DNA from: Erysipelothrix anatis | GTDB lineage: Bacteria > Bacillota_I > Bacilli_A > Erysipelotrichales > Erysipelotrichaceae | NCBI RefSeq assembly: GCF_009828745.1 | Contig: NZ_WTSX01000002.1 | Location: 62,001 to 126,000 of the forward strand | Direction: 5' to 3' | Length of the DNA: 64,000 bases | Part shown: positions 41,668 through 49,017 of the stretch, one piece after another | Position numbering within the stretch: position 1 is the stretch's first letter | Layout of the letters: each line of letters begins with the position of its first letter | Position numbers and translations under genes: made by a program | Notes under the pieces: generated by a model | Told to the model about the DNA's origin: nothing | The model's input: only the letters and a program-made list of their open reading frames with translations | Databases searched by the model: none

Positions 41668-41696
41668 ATTATAAGGATATTTCTTTGTTTAATCAA
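41668..41696 (-). promoter_or_regulatory. Promoter of mnmE, predicted to give a leaderless mRNA
   Basis: Minus strand TTGATT at 41691-41696, 17-base spacer, TATAAT at 41668-41673, then six bases and the ATG. Transcription should begin at the start codon. Confidence 0.75.
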
Positions 41697-41795
41697 ACTG
41701 AATGCTATGACATACGATTTCATTGTGGCGTTTTTGTTCAGTTTCACATCTTAAGACTACATTCTCATTTTATACTGTATTTAATGGAGGGGCTT

Positions 41796-42041
41796 ATGAT
41801 TTATAACAAAAATCGTTACATTCTTATTTTAATCATCGTTTTTAACTGTGTCGTTACGGCGGCATGTTATGTCATTCTTACGTCACTTATTGGTTTCAAT
41901 TTAAACATGAACTATCCAACACTATACGATCAAATTGGATTTACCTTGCCTTTTTTTCAGTCGTTGGCATTAATCGCAGTTTTCGTCAATATTTTGGGTT
42001 TTATCTATATCACAATAAAGACATTCGGAAGATCGTATTAA
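41796..42041 (+). CDS. Small two-transmembrane protein of unknown function
   Basis: An 81-residue protein with hydrophobic segments at about 8-30 (ILILIIVFNCVVTAACYVIL) and 52-74, a basic N-terminus and a basic tail. A very good GGAGGGG site precedes the ATG at 41796; the longer frame from 41685 has none. It is divergent from mnmE and convergent with the Nudix gene, with which it shares a terminator. Function unknown. Confidence 0.72.
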   Translation: MIYNKNRYILILIIVFNCVVTAACYVILTSLIGFNLNMNYPTLYDQIGFTLPFFQSLALIAVFVNILGFIYITIKTFGRSY

Positions 42042-42060
42042 TCTGACGAATGTCTTTATT
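42014..42060. terminator. Shared bidirectional terminator with a 14-bp perfect stem
   Basis: AATAAAGACATTCG at 42014-42027 and its exact reverse complement at 42047-42060. The stem spans the stop codons of both convergent genes and ends in T-rich sequence on both sides. Confidence 0.8.
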
Positions 42061-42802
42061 GTAATGGAATTGGATTGAGCCATTGTTCTGCAGAAACAAT
42101 GATAGATTCCCAGTAGGTTCCTGCAACCGCTTGATAGGCTTTATCATATGACATCCATGCATATGTTTCAATTTTTGGATGTTTCATAACTTCTTGTTCG
42201 GTGTCGATAGACCCCAGATACAGAATGATTTTCTTATGATACTGATCACGGTAGTCGTACTCTAGTACAAAATGCGTTGTCTCGACACTGTCAACCGATA
42301 ATCCTACTTCTTCGTAAAGCTCACGATTTGCGGTATCCCATGATAACTCATCACGTTTGATACGTCCTTTAGGTAATGACCAGTTCTCTTGGTCTTGGAG
42401 TCGAATCAACAAGTATTCACGCTCAGGATGTTCACGATATACTAAAAACCCAGCCGATACTTTATAGAGTGCATCAATCGTAATATTGAAGTACTGTTCT
42501 TGAAAGTTTACTTGCCGTAAAATGTCGTCATGATAGAAAATAGCCCCCTCTTGAGCCACTACCCATTTCGTAATTGGACTATTGTCACGATGAATAACAG
42601 CGATAACTTGTCCCGTAAATTCTGACACTGGCCCTTCAACACCAACTAAGTAAGCGTCTTGGAGTTCGTTATCATGTGTATATACACCCTCTACCTCACC
42701 ATAATTTAGTTCGTAAAGCAACGAACTATAAACAGGATGCATACTTCCCATTGGGCGGTGTATCTTAACTTTTACTGTGCGACCTAATATCGTTGTTTCC
42801 AT
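42056..42802 (-). CDS. Pyrophosphatase-like / Nudix hydrolase fusion protein
   Basis: Two-part protein of 248 residues. Residues 1-110 resemble a short inorganic-pyrophosphatase-like family found in Firmicutes, with VKIHRPMGSMHP, LNYGEVEGVY, DAYLVGVEGPV and VIAVIHRDN. Residues 110-248 are a Nudix domain with a complete box: GRIKRDE then seven residues then RELYEEVGL. Nudix substrates vary; ADP-ribose, dinucleotides or NDP-sugars are all possible. AAAGGAGG precedes the ATG. It lies 30 bases downstream of the second sirtuin-like gene on the same strand, so it is probably in that operon. The N-terminal assignment is from memory of the sequence pattern. Confidence 0.78.
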   Translation of the reverse strand: METTILGRTVKVKIHRPMGSMHPVYSSLLYELNYGEVEGVYTHDNELQDAYLVGVEGPVSEFTGQVIAVIHRDNSPITKWVVAQEGAIFYHDDILRQVNFQEQYFNITIDALYKVSAGFLVYREHPEREYLLIRLQDQENWSLPKGRIKRDELSWDTANRELYEEVGLSVDSVETTHFVLEYDYRDQYHKKIILYLGSIDTEQEVMKHPKIETYAWMSYDKAYQAVAGTYWESIIVSAEQWLNPIPLQ

Positions 42803-42832
42803 ACATCCTCCTTTAGGGCTTGTCTATCCCCA

Positions 42833-43381
42833 TCAAGCATTTCGTGATAGAAAATCTCGTACTTTTGAAGTTGCATCATCTTGAATTTCTATGATGTTAG
42901 CGCCATTCATATAAGCGATTTCACGTATCTGAACGGCAATTTGTGTATAACGCGATGCACCAATCACCAAAAGAATATCTCCAGATTCTAATTTTGAAAC
43001 TTTCTGAATTGCTTTGGCATAATTGGGTGCTGGATTGCCATAAAGAACGGGCTTATGAAAGAGTTCATGTGCATACTCAATTTCATCTTCAGAAGGGAGT
43101 ACTCCATGAACTTCAAGAACTTGGGTACTTCCGGCACGTTCATGCAACCCATCAATATTCATCGTAATGATTGGAATTTTGTATTCCGCAAGAGCGCGAT
43201 GTGCATCATTAGGTTCCGCATTTTTTACTGCATTTACAAGGTCACGAATCGTTTCTTGATACTCATGAGGATGTGCCGTCGCAAATGTCCGGTACAAACG
43301 ATCACGCACTTCAGGCATCTCCATGAATGTGTTAATGCCTGAGTCTTTACTAATTCCTGCTCCTGTAAATGCTAATATCAT
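42833..43381 (-). CDS. Short sirtuin-like (SIR2-fold) protein, paralog A
   Basis: A 182-residue NAD-binding Rossmann protein with sirtuin motifs: GAGISKDSG at 7-15, TMNIDGLHERAGS near 73-85, EVHG with the catalytic histidine near 90, and LVIGAS near 140. It has no cysteine at all, so the structural zinc module of normal sirtuins is absent. The conserved TQN is TMN. It overlaps the paralog upstream by 4 bases (ATGA), and the Nudix gene follows. It may be an NAD-dependent deacylase, an ADP-ribosyl transferase or an NADase; nothing decides between these. Confidence 0.8.
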   Translation of the reverse strand: MILAFTGAGISKDSGINTFMEMPEVRDRLYRTFATAHPHEYQETIRDLVNAVKNAEPNDAHRALAEYKIPIITMNIDGLHERAGSTQVLEVHGVLPSEDEIEYAHELFHKPVLYGNPAPNYAKAIQKVSKLESGDILLVIGASRYTQIAVQIREIAYMNGANIIEIQDDATSKVRDFLSRNA

Positions 43382-43941
43382 ACTTGTATACCCGCCTTTA
43401 TAAGATTCTCTAGAACAATTCGAGTATTCGCTACCGCATTCTGTTGAATTTCAATAACATGGGCGCCATTTTCTGCTGCAATGCGGCGAATGTCATTGGA
43501 TATGACGGTATACTCCGATGCTCCTATTACTAAAAGTATATCATCTTTTCCTAACTTTTTAATAGCCTCAATGCCTTTTGGATAGTTTGGAGCTGTTTCA
43601 CCATAGAGTACGGGACGATTTTCTAGGTCTAAATCATTATCGATTTGAAATTGTGTCGGAATTGTGCCGTGTAAGTTAATCGGCTTACTTCCAGCCTTTT
43701 CATGCAATCCATCAACATTCATAGTCAATATTTGAACACCATATTCAGCTAATGCAAGATGTGCATCATTGGGTTTTGCAACCATGAACAAATCATGCAT
43801 GTTGTATACGGAGTTACGGAATGCATCGGGATTATTTTCTAAGAATTCTTTATTCAACATTTGACGGACCTCCGGCATCTCATCAAATGTTTTAAGTCCT
43901 GAAGCTTTACTAATTCCAGCTCCGGTTAATGCTATAATCAT
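43378..43941 (-). CDS. Short sirtuin-like (SIR2-fold) protein, paralog B
   Basis: Paralog of the next gene, 187 residues, with GAGISKASG near 7-15, TMNVDGLHEKAGS, NLHG with the catalytic histidine, and LVIGASEYT. It also lacks every cysteine and so has no zinc ribbon. The shared stretches A-x-PNDAH-x-ALAEY and PVLYG-x-x-APNY show tandem duplication. The start at 43941 follows GAGGAG at a rather long spacing; the ORF to 43983 is less likely because its upstream part overlaps a TATAAT box at 43973-43978. It heads the presumed three-gene operon. Confidence 0.8.
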   Translation of the reverse strand: MIIALTGAGISKASGLKTFDEMPEVRQMLNKEFLENNPDAFRNSVYNMHDLFMVAKPNDAHLALAEYGVQILTMNVDGLHEKAGSKPINLHGTIPTQFQIDNDLDLENRPVLYGETAPNYPKGIEAIKKLGKDDILLVIGASEYTVISNDIRRIAAENGAHVIEIQQNAVANTRIVLENLIKAGIQV

Positions 43942-44017
43942 ATATTTTTTACGTCTCCTCGTCTTAATATCCATTATACGCAAGTTCCGGGGATAGTCAG
44001 TTCAAATGCACAAGCAC

Positions 44018-44045
44018 AAAAAAAGGATACAACGTATCCTTTTTG
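44018..44045 (-). terminator. Terminator after kduI
   Basis: AAAAGGATAC, loop, GTATCCTTTTT with seven T residues on the minus strand. It separates the uronate cluster from the sirtuin-like operon. Confidence 0.88.
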
Positions 44046-44046
44046 A

Positions 44047-44883
44047 TTAACGTAAGTCTTCCATTGCGACATGGTCCATGTCGTCATATGTAATATTTTC
44101 CCCACACATTGACCAGATGAATGAGTAGTTTGATGTCGCTACACCCGTATGGATTGACCAACTTGGTGAGATACATGCTTGTTCATTTGATACGAGTAAA
44201 TGACGTGTTTCTTGAGGTTGACCCATAAAATGGAACACTCGGTTTCCTTCGGGAATATCAAAGTAAAGATACGTTTCCATGCGACGTTCGTGAGTATGAC
44301 TTGGCATGGTATTCCATGATGAACCTTCCTTTAAAATCGTATATCCCATTTGAAGTTGGCAACTTTCGCATACATTTGGATGAATATACTGGAAAATTTC
44401 GCGATCGTTCATGCTCTTTGCTTCACCTGCAAGGCGTGGTGTAATTTGATCTATGCTAATTTTAACGTTTGGATATTTTTTATGTGCAGGTACCGAGACA
44501 ACATAGAATTTTGCTGGGTTACTTGCATCGTTTGACATGAATTGAATGTCTTTAGTTTCTTTTCCAATGTAGAAACCATCTTGTTTTTCCATGGCGAACG
44601 TTTCACCTTCAATCGTGATGGATCCACTACCACCAATGTTGATGACACCTAATTCACGACGTTCTAGAAAGTAATCCACACCGAGTTCTGTGCTTAAGAC
44701 GATTTCTAATGGTGTCGTTGTTGGTGTTACACCACCAAAAATCATACGGTCATTGTGCGTATATGTTAACAAGATATCTCCAGGAATAAAGATTGACTCA
44801 ACCAAATATTGTTCGCGTAATTCGGTTGTATTTAAACGCTCCATTTCACGAGGACTTGCTGCATAGCGTGTTTCTAATTTCAT
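44047..44883 (-). CDS. kduI: 5-keto-4-deoxyuronate isomerase
   Basis: Isomerises the open-chain form of unsaturated uronate (5-keto-4-deoxyuronate) to 2,5-diketo-3-deoxygluconate, the step after lyase and hydrolase release it from pectin or glycosaminoglycans. The cupin metal site matches E. coli KduI residue for residue: H196, H198, E203 and H245. Length is 278 residues, identical to the E. coli enzyme. AAGGAG precedes the ATG. It is the last gene of the uronate cluster; the later steps (KduD, KdgK, KdgA) are not in the window. Confidence 0.95.
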   Translation of the reverse strand: MKLETRYAASPREMERLNTTELREQYLVESIFIPGDILLTYTHNDRMIFGGVTPTTTPLEIVLSTELGVDYFLERRELGVINIGGSGSITIEGETFAMEKQDGFYIGKETKDIQFMSNDASNPAKFYVVSVPAHKKYPNVKISIDQITPRLAGEAKSMNDREIFQYIHPNVCESCQLQMGYTILKEGSSWNTMPSHTHERRMETYLYFDIPEGNRVFHFMGQPQETRHLLVSNEQACISPSWSIHTGVATSNYSFIWSMCGENITYDDMDHVAMEDLR

Positions 44884-44900
44884 AATAAAGGCTCCTTATC

Positions 44901-45734
44901 TTATTTGTTTGTTCCGAAAACTTCAAGTTGGGTGAGGGCTGGGAATGGTCCTGGCTCTCCTTTAATCAATGAATGCATTGTTAGTGACGTAATGGTTTTT
45001 GCTTCGAATTTGAAGACTTGACGGGCATCCGTTTTAACGGTCTCAAAGACTGCTTCGGATCCATCATCAAATGACATCGATACTTGATTCCACCACGTAT
45101 CATGAGGGAAATCACAGCGCAACGTAATACTAATCATATCTGTCACAATCTCACGTCCAAAATCAATCGTTAGCGCAGCATCATCTTGTTGGTTAATACC
45201 CCAAGATTGATATGGGTACGCTCCATGATCATCATTAGCCCAAACACCATCAATTGCATTACGAGCAAAGAAAGTTGGGTCATTTCGCGTTTCCACATTG
45301 GCTGAGGCATGTGGGTATACCCCTTTGTTGAGATATTCTGCGTGGCGGTTTAATGCCAAGTTGCGATACTGACTAATTTCAAAATCATAGGCATAACGTG
45401 CATAAATATAGTGACCATTTCCGGTGAATGATGTATCTTTCAAAGCACTACGTTCTAATTGTTCAAATGGTATTTGATAATCCCATGTTATTGCATCTTT
45501 AATGTAGACAAGGCTGGGTTCGAATGTGTCATCGAACTTGACCCAAACGTATTGATTAGGCTGATCAACTTCAAGGCGAATAAAATCTCCTTCTTGAAGT
45601 GCAATTTTGCGACTTCCAATGTGAACCGCATCTTCCGATTCGCCATACAGTAAACGATCTGGCAATTCATATTTAGGATCAAATTTTTCACGTACGATCT
45701 GATTGTCTTTGTTGTAAATACCTAATTTAATCAT
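44901..45734 (-). CDS. Cytoplasmic discoidin-like (F5/8 type C) protein of the uronate cluster
   Basis: A 277-residue protein of unknown activity. The C-terminal 150 residues look like an F5/8 type C (discoidin) domain, with SANVETRNDPTFFARNAIDG, an SWGINQQ-type turn, ALTIDFGREI and a TQLEVFG ending. The N-terminal 120 residues are beta-rich and unassigned. Discoidin domains usually bind glycans outside the cell, but no signal peptide is present. The ATG at 45734 follows AAAGGAG; a frame start at 45782 would have no site. It lies between the GH88 enzyme and kduI and probably has its own promoter. Confidence 0.75.
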   Translation of the reverse strand: MIKLGIYNKDNQIVREKFDPKYELPDRLLYGESEDAVHIGSRKIALQEGDFIRLEVDQPNQYVWVKFDDTFEPSLVYIKDAITWDYQIPFEQLERSALKDTSFTGNGHYIYARYAYDFEISQYRNLALNRHAEYLNKGVYPHASANVETRNDPTFFARNAIDGVWANDDHGAYPYQSWGINQQDDAALTIDFGREIVTDMISITLRCDFPHDTWWNQVSMSFDDGSEAVFETVKTDARQVFKFEAKTITSLTMHSLIKGEPGPFPALTQLEVFGTNK

Positions 45735-45822
45735 AGATTCTCCTTTTACCAATAGGGTTAATTGTGATGGCATATGCTTCATGTTTCGTTATATTCAACG
45801 CAACGACACATGCAACTACATT

Positions 45823-45834
45823 TCTATCATACCA
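45823..45834 (-). promoter_or_regulatory. Extended -10 promoter upstream of the discoidin-like gene and kduI
   Basis: Minus strand TGGTATGAT (hexamer at 45826-45831) about 90 bases before the ATG. The -35 region is weak. It would allow these two genes to be transcribed apart from the lyase genes. Confidence 0.45.
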
Positions 45835-45871
45835 TATACTTTTTGTAGAACTGCCGGGTTCAGGCAATAGA

Positions 45872-45922
45872 TTGCGAATAACGTGCAGTATCGCAATTAT
45901 TTAGTAAACAGTACTAGTAAAC
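45872..45922. repeat. Repeat-rich control region: inverted repeat and tandem TAGTAAAC boxes
   Basis: ATTGCGA (45872-45878) and TCGCAAT (45892-45898) are exact inverted repeats. TAGTAAAC occurs twice, at 45902-45909 and 45915-45922, 13 bases apart. They lie upstream of the promoter of the discoidin-like gene, where a regulator of the uronate cluster could bind. Confidence 0.5.
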
Positions 45923-45946
45923 CGGTTATATAAATATGTGTTTTTG

Positions 45947-47074
45947 TTACCAGTATGGCTTCCATGACGGATTGTTGAGGCGCATCAGAGCTTCAACATA
46001 AAAGTAATCTCCCCAAATATTTCCTTCTTCTATGCCAAAATTGTCATGCCACGAATATACACCTTCATTAAGAAGCGCATGACCCTTCTCCGGTTTTTTA
46101 TTGGCATAATTTTTGATGAGGCTAAGCATAATTGCATCAACTGCTGACTCTGTCTTTTTCCTATAGTCGCTATCTGTGATATGGGGTAGCATCTCGAGCA
46201 TACCGCATACCGCAATTGCAGCCGCACTGCTATCACGCGGTTGGTCTGATCCATCATTAAAAATCAAATCCCAGTAAGCGACCTGGTTCTCTGGTAATTT
46301 TTCGAGAAAATAGTCAGTAACTGCCATAAATTGGCTCATGGTCTCAGTCAGCGGATAATGTTTATAGCCAAGAGCAATTCCATAAATTGACCACGCTTGC
46401 CCCCTGGCCCATGACGAGTCATCACTAAACCCTTGACGCGTCAATCCATGACTTGGAATGTGTGTTATTGGATCAACGTAATAGGTGTGATAACTACTCC
46501 CGTTATCTCGTATGAGGTACGTTAAACAAATTTGATAATGTCGATCAGCTATGTCACGATACTCACTAATTCCAGTTTCTTCATTGGCCCAATATAAAAG
46601 GGGTAGATTTAAGAGCGAATCAATAATAAAGCGATGTTCTTGAGGATCATTTTTAGCACCCCACGCTTGGATAAAACCTGGATTTTCGTGCCATCTTGCG
46701 ATGAGTTTGTCTGCAGCTCTAAGGGCAACTTCTTTCGCTGCTTCATCTCCTGTTAGGCGGTATGATGCCACACACGATAACGAATAAAGAAATCCCATGT
46801 CATGATGGTCAAGCACAATATTACGGTCCATACGATCTATAAATGAGATGACATGACGTTGTGCCATCTCACGATAAACTGGTTGTTGTTGATATTCAAA
46901 CATCATCCACAATATACCTGTCCAAAAACCTTCTACCCAATCTTCATTTTTTACCTTCTGATATTGGTTCTGAAGTGTCGAAGCCGACGGAAATGTGTCT
47001 TCAAAATATTCCATATTTAATGCTGTTTGGATTGCTACACGATCCAACGCTTGCTTTATTATTTCTGCTGTCAT
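45947..47074 (-). CDS. Unsaturated glucuronyl hydrolase (GH88)
   Basis: Removes the 4,5-unsaturated uronic acid from oligosaccharides produced by polysaccharide lyases, by hydrating the double bond. The two aspartates known from Bacillus UGL are matched by D92 in DHHDMGF and D152 in FIIDSLLNL. The alpha6/alpha6-barrel length of 375 residues is typical. There is no signal peptide, so it acts on imported sugars. GGAG precedes the ATG. It starts 8 bases after the heparinase-family gene, so the two are translated from one mRNA. The likely substrates are glycosaminoglycan disaccharides. Confidence 0.92.
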   Translation of the reverse strand: MTAEIIKQALDRVAIQTALNMEYFEDTFPSASTLQNQYQKVKNEDWVEGFWTGILWMMFEYQQQPVYREMAQRHVISFIDRMDRNIVLDHHDMGFLYSLSCVASYRLTGDEAAKEVALRAADKLIARWHENPGFIQAWGAKNDPQEHRFIIDSLLNLPLLYWANEETGISEYRDIADRHYQICLTYLIRDNGSSYHTYYVDPITHIPSHGLTRQGFSDDSSWARGQAWSIYGIALGYKHYPLTETMSQFMAVTDYFLEKLPENQVAYWDLIFNDGSDQPRDSSAAAIAVCGMLEMLPHITDSDYRKKTESAVDAIMLSLIKNYANKKPEKGHALLNEGVYSWHDNFGIEEGNIWGDYFYVEALMRLNNPSWKPYW

Positions 47075-47082
47075 AAGTACTC

Positions 47083-49017
47083 CTATCGTAGTTTTTCTTC
47101 ATAAATAAGGGACTCGCCATCAGTCACAAAATGAATGAGTGTTCCGTAAAAATAATGACCTGAAACCACGTAGACCTTGCGGCCATCTTGAGGCTCTTGG
47201 TGTTGTATCAAAACATGTTCGTATACTGTATCAATCTCGAAGCGATAACAACTCACAATAGTCGGATCAATAAGTGCTCCGTGTTCGTCATAGACCGGTA
47301 CACTCGTGATATCTTGATACTGCACAGGACTTAAGTATGTGACTGCTTTTTGTTCCGCATGTTTTTTAATGATGCGGACTGTTTCTCTTTTTTTATTATA
47401 AGTTTCTGAAACTTCTGTTGTTTCTTGAATCCATGGCTGTGTTGAACCAAAACTTTGAACTTGATACCCGGTTTCATTATGGATTGCTGTCTGTCCTGAA
47501 ATGGTGACATCCTCTGAATTAAAGATAAAATGATGGGTTAATGCTCGATTTTGTTGACCGTGAGACGTATCAATGACGAGAATCCGCATATCTTCTAACG
47601 CAATTACCTCACGTTGAACATATACAGCATTGGCGACAGTACTATACCCAAAGTGGCCAGCCTTTAAATAAGTGAGACGTGATCCATCAATGAATTCACG
47701 GTTCTCTGCCGCAACGTTCTTTAATGTATCCCATGCATCTTTATGTTCATTGTAGTCCTGATCATCCAATAAAACAGTATTATGGGCACGTGAACTCTTA
47801 AATTTTAGACGTGATTGATTGGCTTCAAAATAGGTAAATCTTCCTGAATCAATAAGGACCGGTTTGAAACGGTACATAAGTTCTAAATGCAACAAGTCAT
47901 CATGACCATGTCCCCCTCCTAACGGACCATGCGTAAACATAAGAAAGTTTCCAGATGCTGCATGCTTAATGATAGAAATTCCAGACTCATACATATGCGT
48001 CGAGATTAATGCTGAATTTACATCGCTTGCGGTTTCGTTAATCCCTGAGAGCATGACTGAAAAGAGATTTCCTCTTGCTCCTTCGACATCACGACCCAAA
48101 ACTGTTTGCGCAAAAGCCAGAATTCCATCCATAACCTCGACATCGCTATCTCCAAAATTACTTTGGGTACTATCTGGACGTCGTAGGTTTTCTGAAGCAC
48201 GGGTCATCAGTTCCGCACTTTCAAGGAAAAGACTGTGTGACTTTAGCCCATTTTGCTTTTGAATCCATAATGCTTGGAGTAAGACCATTAAGACCTCATG
48301 ATGATACATAAACGATTGTTCCCACTGGAGTCCATCACGGTTAATCTGCAGCTTCATACAGAGTTGCAGCAACGATACTGCATTTTTATAAGTACTTCGT
48401 TTGGACGCATCGTGATATCTAAATATTTCGTAGACAATGACACTACTAGTTTCAATTGCAACCCAATTACTCTGTGCACGGATGATACTGAGATTATCGG
48501 AGACATGCTTAGCCTGCTCATCCAATGACACACAAAGACGGTTTGCCCATTGTGTATCCAAAACTTCCATCACGCGTAATGCATCAATAATCCGAATCCA
48601 ATTGTTCATGCGAATGGCGGTATCTATTGTTCGCCAACTGAATGGATGATTTGCTTCTGTATGCGGATTTTCCAGAATCCATAAATCAATAAAATCCATG
48701 AGATAGGCGATGTATTTAAAATCGTCTGTTAGCGCATAGGCAGCCCACAAATCATTTAAGAATGTATGACGGTGAAACATATACGACCATTCTAGATCAC
48801 TATTATGGACATAGTTCCATTCACGATCCATTTTGGGTAGGTTAATTGGTTCATGAGAACGTTCCATATCCCATTCATTATCAAACACAAACGTATCTGT
48901 AAGTAAAAGATCTGCACGTGCGATAAGTGCACGCCGTTCCGTACTGTCGAGAACCATTAATGTTTGTTTTAATTTGTGACGTGTCAAATTAATATTACCA
49001 ACAAATGAATCATGCAT
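47083..49017 (-). CDS. Heparinase II/III-family polysaccharide lyase, cytoplasmic
   Basis: A 644-residue enzyme with an N-terminal alpha/alpha toroid (about 1-330) and a C-terminal beta-sandwich, the layout of heparinase II/III, PL12 and related lyases. These cut uronic-acid glycosides by beta-elimination. The GGGHGHDDLLHLEL segment near 370 carries the family histidines, and NWVAIE near 205 and YHHEV near 262 are typical helix signatures. No signal peptide is present, so it likely works on imported oligosaccharides. AAAGGAG precedes the ATG. It is directly followed by GH88, which fits a lyase-then-hydrolase order. Heparan, hyaluronan or chondroitin fragments are possible substrates; the sequence does not decide. 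Confidence 0.85.
   Translation of the reverse strand: MHDSFVGNINLTRHKLKQTLMVLDSTERRALIARADLLLTDTFVFDNEWDMERSHEPINLPKMDREWNYVHNSDLEWSYMFHRHTFLNDLWAAYALTDDFKYIAYLMDFIDLWILENPHTEANHPFSWRTIDTAIRMNNWIRIIDALRVMEVLDTQWANRLCVSLDEQAKHVSDNLSIIRAQSNWVAIETSSVIVYEIFRYHDASKRSTYKNAVSLLQLCMKLQINRDGLQWEQSFMYHHEVLMVLLQALWIQKQNGLKSHSLFLESAELMTRASENLRRPDSTQSNFGDSDVEVMDGILAFAQTVLGRDVEGARGNLFSVMLSGINETASDVNSALISTHMYESGISIIKHAASGNFLMFTHGPLGGGHGHDDLLHLELMYRFKPVLIDSGRFTYFEANQSRLKFKSSRAHNTVLLDDQDYNEHKDAWDTLKNVAAENREFIDGSRLTYLKAGHFGYSTVANAVYVQREVIALEDMRILVIDTSHGQQNRALTHHFIFNSEDVTISGQTAIHNETGYQVQSFGSTQPWIQETTEVSETYNKKRETVRIIKKHAEQKAVTYLSPVQYQDITSVPVYDEHGALIDPTIVSCYRFEIDTVYEHVLIQHQEPQDGRKVYVVSGHYFYGTLIHFVTDGESLIYEEKLR

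Follow-up and report, generated by a model that had tools for sequence, protein, structure and literature searches.

Two sirtuin genes packed against a gene for a pyrophosphatase-like/Nudix fusion in Erysipelothrix anatis raise the question of whether the three encode a dedicated NAD/ADP-ribose pathway, as a sequence-only reading had proposed, or whether the sirtuins themselves set the locus apart. The genes lie in a window of 64,000 nucleotides (contig NZ_WTSX01000002.1), the whole stretch of DNA analysed here. The notable part of the locus is a clade of zinc-less mini-sirtuins, rather than the Nudix pairing.

Gene layout and transcript signals

The genes follow each other on the minus strand in the order sirB, sirA and fusion gene, with these features (window positions):

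43378..43941, minus strand: sirB, compact sirtuin paralogue, 187 aa from ATG (Pfam SIR2 45.8 bits, alignment)
42833..43381, minus strand: sirA, compact sirtuin, 182 aa (Pfam SIR2 54.5 bits, AlphaFold model)
43052..43102, minus strand: SirA residues 94-110, short linker joining the catalytic HG to the PVLYG strand, in the zinc-ribbon position (alignments)
42056..42802, minus strand: fusion gene, 248 aa, pyrophosphatase-like domain plus Nudix domain
42473..42802, minus strand: shortened family-I pyrophosphatase-like barrel, fusion residues 1-110 (relatives over the PF00719 cut-off, model alignment)
42299..42367, minus strand: intact Nudix box GRIKRDELSWDTANRELYEEVGL, fusion residues 146-168 (sequence, alignment)
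43973..44000, minus strand: promoter-like CTGACT-N16-TATAAT upstream of sirB, frequency not above chance
44020..44044, minus strand: terminator-like hairpin after kduI, setting kduI apart from the operon
42012..42062, minus strand: hairpin of 51 bases, -24.1 kcal/mol, after the fusion gene, probable transcript end

The close packing described in the sequence-only reading was confirmed, with sirB and sirA overlapping by 4 bases (ATGA) and a gap of 30 bases before the fusion gene; Shine-Dalgarno sequences are GAGGAGA for sirB and AAAGGAGG for the fusion gene. Its family assignments also held, as both sirtuins pass the Pfam SIR2 cut-off, a NUDIX domain is present and a pyrophosphatase fold is predicted at the N-terminus of the fusion. 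The transcript signals fared less evenly. The TATAAT box it placed upstream exists, but promoter-like matches were no more frequent than in shuffled sequence (9 observed, 9.6 expected), so the sirB site is graded as plausible. The strong terminator on the far side corresponds to the 51-base hairpin, but this shows no clear U-tract on the minus strand and the wording was slightly overstated. Comparison with E. aquatica (L071) gave dN/dS values of 0.035 for sirB, 0.095 for sirA and 0.035 for the fusion gene; this purifying selection indicates that all three genes are maintained.

Just upstream of the operon, kduI and its neighbours (44047-49017, minus strand) resemble a cluster for polysaccharide (uronate) breakdown. 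The interval from the fusion gene to mnmE encodes, on the plus strand, a small predicted membrane protein (41685-42041), for which no family match was found and which has a counterpart in E. aquatica.

Compact sirtuins without a zinc ribbon

SirA and SirB both exceed the curated cut-off of Pfam SIR2 (PF02146, 24 bits), and the profile alignment covers just the first half of each protein because the region between His-Gly and the Val-Leu-Tyr-Gly strand is cut down. The alignments place the missing Cys4 zinc ribbon there, deleted between HG and PVLYG, and neither protein contains a single cysteine. Across 30 aligned members the ribbon site spans about 17 residues in SirA and SirB and almost nil in some relatives, while Cys4 relatives in Clostridia, for instance in Caloramator (L139), retain CxxC...CxxC at this position. 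The same 30 members share an invariant GAG-S loop (GAGIS in SirA), Asn75, Asp77 and His92-Gly93, and all carry Met74 in place of the Gln of the canonical TQN motif (TMN). The sirtuin fold was confidently predicted for SirA (AlphaFold pLDDT 94.5); the model superimposed over its full length on E. coli CobB (1s5p; Z 21.3, rmsd 1.9 over 177 residues) and matched SIRT5 deacylases with Z 18-20. Profile score, Rossmann sirtuin fold, GAG-S loop and the Asn/Asp/His set together place these proteins in the SIR2 superfamily.

Comparison with known systems shows what is retained and what is lost. SirA and SirB have the Rossmann core, GAG-S NAD loop and Asn/Asp/His set of CobB and canonical sirtuins (PF02146); unlike classes I-IV and U, they lack the zinc ribbon, its cysteines and the PDFR arginine, show TMN for TQN, and have a shorter cofactor loop and C-terminus. 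With SirTM (class M), too, a Bacillota operon encodes a SIR2 protein, but it carries QG instead of HG, keeps its zinc domain and is linked to a macrodomain (PMC4518038), whereas the compact sirtuins keep the invariant HG and have no zinc domain. SirTM-type macrodomain-linked ADP-ribosylation was rejected, as this genome encodes no macrodomain and the motif is HG, not QG. The SIR2_2 proteins ThsA, DSR2 and FAM118 are also devoid of the zinc module (PMC12700824); unlike them, SirA and SirB score with Pfam SIR2 and sit next to Cys4-bearing relatives in the trees, which argues that their ribbon loss is secondary. Finally, rV5-type phage sirtuins similarly miss the zinc cysteines, but they keep an insert of about 30 residues at the ribbon site that the compact sirtuins do not have, and they fall on a separate branch from the compact clade (100/99), with long branches.

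In the trees, the zinc-less rows formed one clade (support 100/99) beside Cys4 rows sharing the TMN motif, and canonical sirtuins from the same families were placed apart from it; roots were set for drawing only, and the Cys4 rows did not form one supported group. Because the zinc-less sequences form one supported clade next to Cys4-bearing relatives, the ribbon was probably lost once in the compact clade. This leaves a natural series within one well-supported clade, from canonical to a short Cys4 ribbon to none, which makes the zinc-module requirement for deacetylation directly testable; the compact proteins, of about 180 aa and with no cysteine, are the simplest stage for that test.

The compact sirtuins are a wide, little-described family. 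A species-level genome collection contained 109 loci encoding relatives, chiefly in Erysipelotrichia and Clostridia, with further holders among Acholeplasmatales MAGs and Psittacicella (Pseudomonadota), and no relevant paper on zinc-less or minimal sirtuins was found in the open-licence PMC literature. Compact zinc-less sirtuins also occurred on four viral contigs of 23-211 kb (L179-L182), branching inside the compact clade. Among 60 relatives, 28 had compact sirtuins only, 24 canonical only, two both and six neither; the exclusion was significant (Fisher p 7.5e-9 overall, 5e-4 within the second family, relatedness uncorrected), and it may partly reflect shared descent. No SIR2 protein besides SirA and SirB was found in this genome. 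Three genomes (G000, G003, G007) have sirB and sirA in tandem and a fourth (G005) has sirB alone, and SirB groups with its counterparts in E. aquatica and E. urinaevulpis (support 100/100).

Two further observations concern this distribution. In Psittacicella (Gammaproteobacteria; L078, L079, L100, L102) the compact sirtuin is nested among Firmicutes sequences, so a transfer is likely. In addition, other SIR2 proteins of 217-260 aa occur in tandem arrays of two or three (G040:C14:30038-32231, G045:C50, G058:C59).

The fusion protein and its linkage to sirtuins

The fusion protein carries a NUDIX domain at residues 113-222 (Pfam, 56.5 bits), and this profile match together with the intact GX5EX7REUXEEXGU box identifies it as a Nudix hydrolase. 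Its top family matches are MutT, RppH, DCP2 and Ap4A types, with ADP-ribose types weak. Structure prediction for this half had low confidence (pLDDT 26-51), so no fold is claimed beyond the profile match. The N-terminal half has no Pfam match in this protein itself, but its standalone relatives exceed the cut-off of Pfam Pyrophosphatase (PF00719). Its model (residues 7-113) aligned with the family-I pyrophosphatase 4ecp (VIA-align, Z 10.8 over 106 residues), and the best 50 rows of the structure comparison were all pyrophosphatases. Asp44, Glu46, Asp49 and Lys79 are retained, and the N-terminal Glu/Lys/Glu set has no clear match; the half is therefore described as a shortened family-I pyrophosphatase fold whose catalytic residues are doubtful. 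It belongs to a family of about 110 aa, frequent in the class, whose members are found joined to GrpB, to an aminoglycoside-acetyltransferase-like domain and to Nudix on either side. Because it joins so many different partners, a general accessory role is suggested for this domain. Varied pyrophosphatase-like fusions were seen at L034, L150, L152, L158, L164, L170 and L171.

The claim of a self-contained NAD/ADP-ribose operon nearly fails on comparison. When the three-gene order was searched in relatives, only the sister species E. aquatica matched, and among the loci read the trio was seen in these two genomes only. The full-length fusion was likewise confined to them (G000 and G007) in overlapping samples of 60 relatives, 296 class genomes and 392 phylum genomes, and a conserved sirtuin-Nudix pair was rejected on this basis. 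In 391 further Clostridia-side genomes the fusion was rare, with about four full-length copies. Seen from the sirtuin side, E. aquatica alone among 79 named loci around compact sirtuins had a Nudix box in the flanks. Genomes with sirtuins of the wider clade encoded the fusion in two of 28 cases (G517, G519); the 16 kb surrounding the G519 copy contained no sirtuin, and the ORF list for 16 kb at the G517 hit did not include the fusion gene. In other Erysipelothrix genomes mnmE is usually the next gene after sirA, with a gap of 0-75 bases in four such species against 1174 in E. aquatica.

Fusion relatives also occur in other lineages. A few Clostridia have full-length relatives, some preceded by a GrpB domain, and their domain order (L215-L217, L247, L249, L251) matches the window protein over almost its whole length. 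The copies in L215-L217, on human-gut contigs filed as phages, are 30-34% identical to it, and several of the gut Clostridia fusions lack the metal-binding acidic residues of the pyrophosphatase part. They differ in that they do not adjoin sirtuins: none was found beside the fusion in neighbourhoods L215-L217, L247 and L249, nor in L250/L251 (partial match). A viral scan with the Nudix half alone found nothing. In An173 (L090) a standalone pyrophosphatase-like gene lies near a sirtuin, a single case that was not counted as linkage.

A conserved sirtuin-Nudix system is thus probably not present, and a dedicated one is not supported by the linkage evidence from genome comparison. A NAD/ADP-ribose link between the neighbours in this lineage is possible, one for which comparison offers no support. 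Operon packing alone can point to a pathway that comparison fails to support.

Possible functions of the locus

The reading we favour, and to which we give about an even chance, is that SirA and SirB take the place of CobB as NAD-dependent deacylase-type enzymes, with the Nudix protein co-expressed and not an obligate partner. In its favour are the retained fold and catalytic residues, the near exclusion of canonical sirtuins, the failure to find further SIR2 proteins in this genome, and the purifying selection on all three genes. The GAGIS loop would bind NAD+, Asn75 and Asp77 would cleave off nicotinamide, and His92 would act as general base so that ADP-ribose is passed to an acyl-lysine-like acceptor, as in CobB. 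The two proteins would replace the canonical CobB that is missing from Erysipelothrix and a large part of the order, SirB being a divergent paralogue of SirA, tandem in three species. The fusion would be a nucleoside-diphosphate-X hydrolase encoded on the same transcript, its gene separating sirA from mnmE in the E. aquatica lineage.

Canonical sirtuins reportedly need their zinc module to deacetylate (PMC12700824), and so the ribbon loss argues against an ordinary protein deacylase, as do the missing PDFR Arg, the change of the TQN Gln to Met and the shorter cofactor loop. A serious rival, which we consider rather unlikely, is therefore that the zinc-less sirtuins have given up protein deacylation and act as NAD glycohydrolases, or as ADP-ribosyltransferases on a non-protein acceptor. 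Loss of zinc module, arginine and glutamine together would fit such a role; SIR2_2 proteins without the module act on NAD (PMC12700824), and the rV5-type phage sirtuins, to which a role in RNA repair has been ascribed as a proposal, are also devoid of the four zinc cysteines. However, the catalytic His needed by deacylases is retained, the distribution is housekeeping-like, single-copy and nearly exclusive of canonical sirtuins, and the compact clade is separate from that of rV5, next to whose gene an RNA ligase lies; none was found at the sirA/sirB locus.

Nudix enzymes acting on ADP-ribose are well known, and the three genes could form a module in which the sirtuins produce ADP-ribose or O-acyl-ADP-ribose from NAD and the Nudix protein hydrolyses it to AMP, preventing its build-up; this is the sequence-only proposal with the defence option left aside. 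Co-directional packing and purifying selection on all three genes in two species are consistent with this, and one distant fusion relative adjoins nadB-nadC. The layout had been said to match no characterised operon, which fits the literature, except that phage sirtuin-Nudix neighbourhoods have been described, with a proposed role in RNA repair (PMC9503650), and these too could speak for a module. The linkage was nevertheless seen in two sister species only, the fusion relatives of other genomes were not found next to a sirtuin, and the best Nudix matches are not of the ADP-ribose type, which makes the module improbable. Similarly speculative is a broader scenario, in which the clade shed its ribbon once, replaced CobB across Erysipelotrichia with ribbon-free NAD use, and an ADP-ribose-clearing Nudix protein was recruited in the E. 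aquatica lineage.

SIR2 domains are known in several defence systems and defence cassettes adjoin the compact sirtuin gene in some gut Firmicutes, but an anti-phage operon, a role also floated in the sequence-only reading, is very improbable: PADLOC did not match the sirtuins and gave the fusion just a weak general Nudix hit, there is no fused sensor or partner, the neighbours are housekeeping genes, and the cassettes look like insertions into the sirtuin gene, not like its partners.

These defence cassettes, of PtuA/PtuB-like and other AAA-ATPase types, are flanked by a full compact sirtuin on one side and, on the other, by truncated copies from which about 20 initial codons are missing, in Massilimicrobiota (L062/L118) and Erysipelotrichaceae MAGs (L063/L110 and L101). 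The right junctions of L062 and L063 have TATCCACNTTYATGGA in common, and the same site is empty in same-genus relatives (L111/L112). The 5' end of the compact sirtuin gene looks like an attachment site for integrase-free cassettes.
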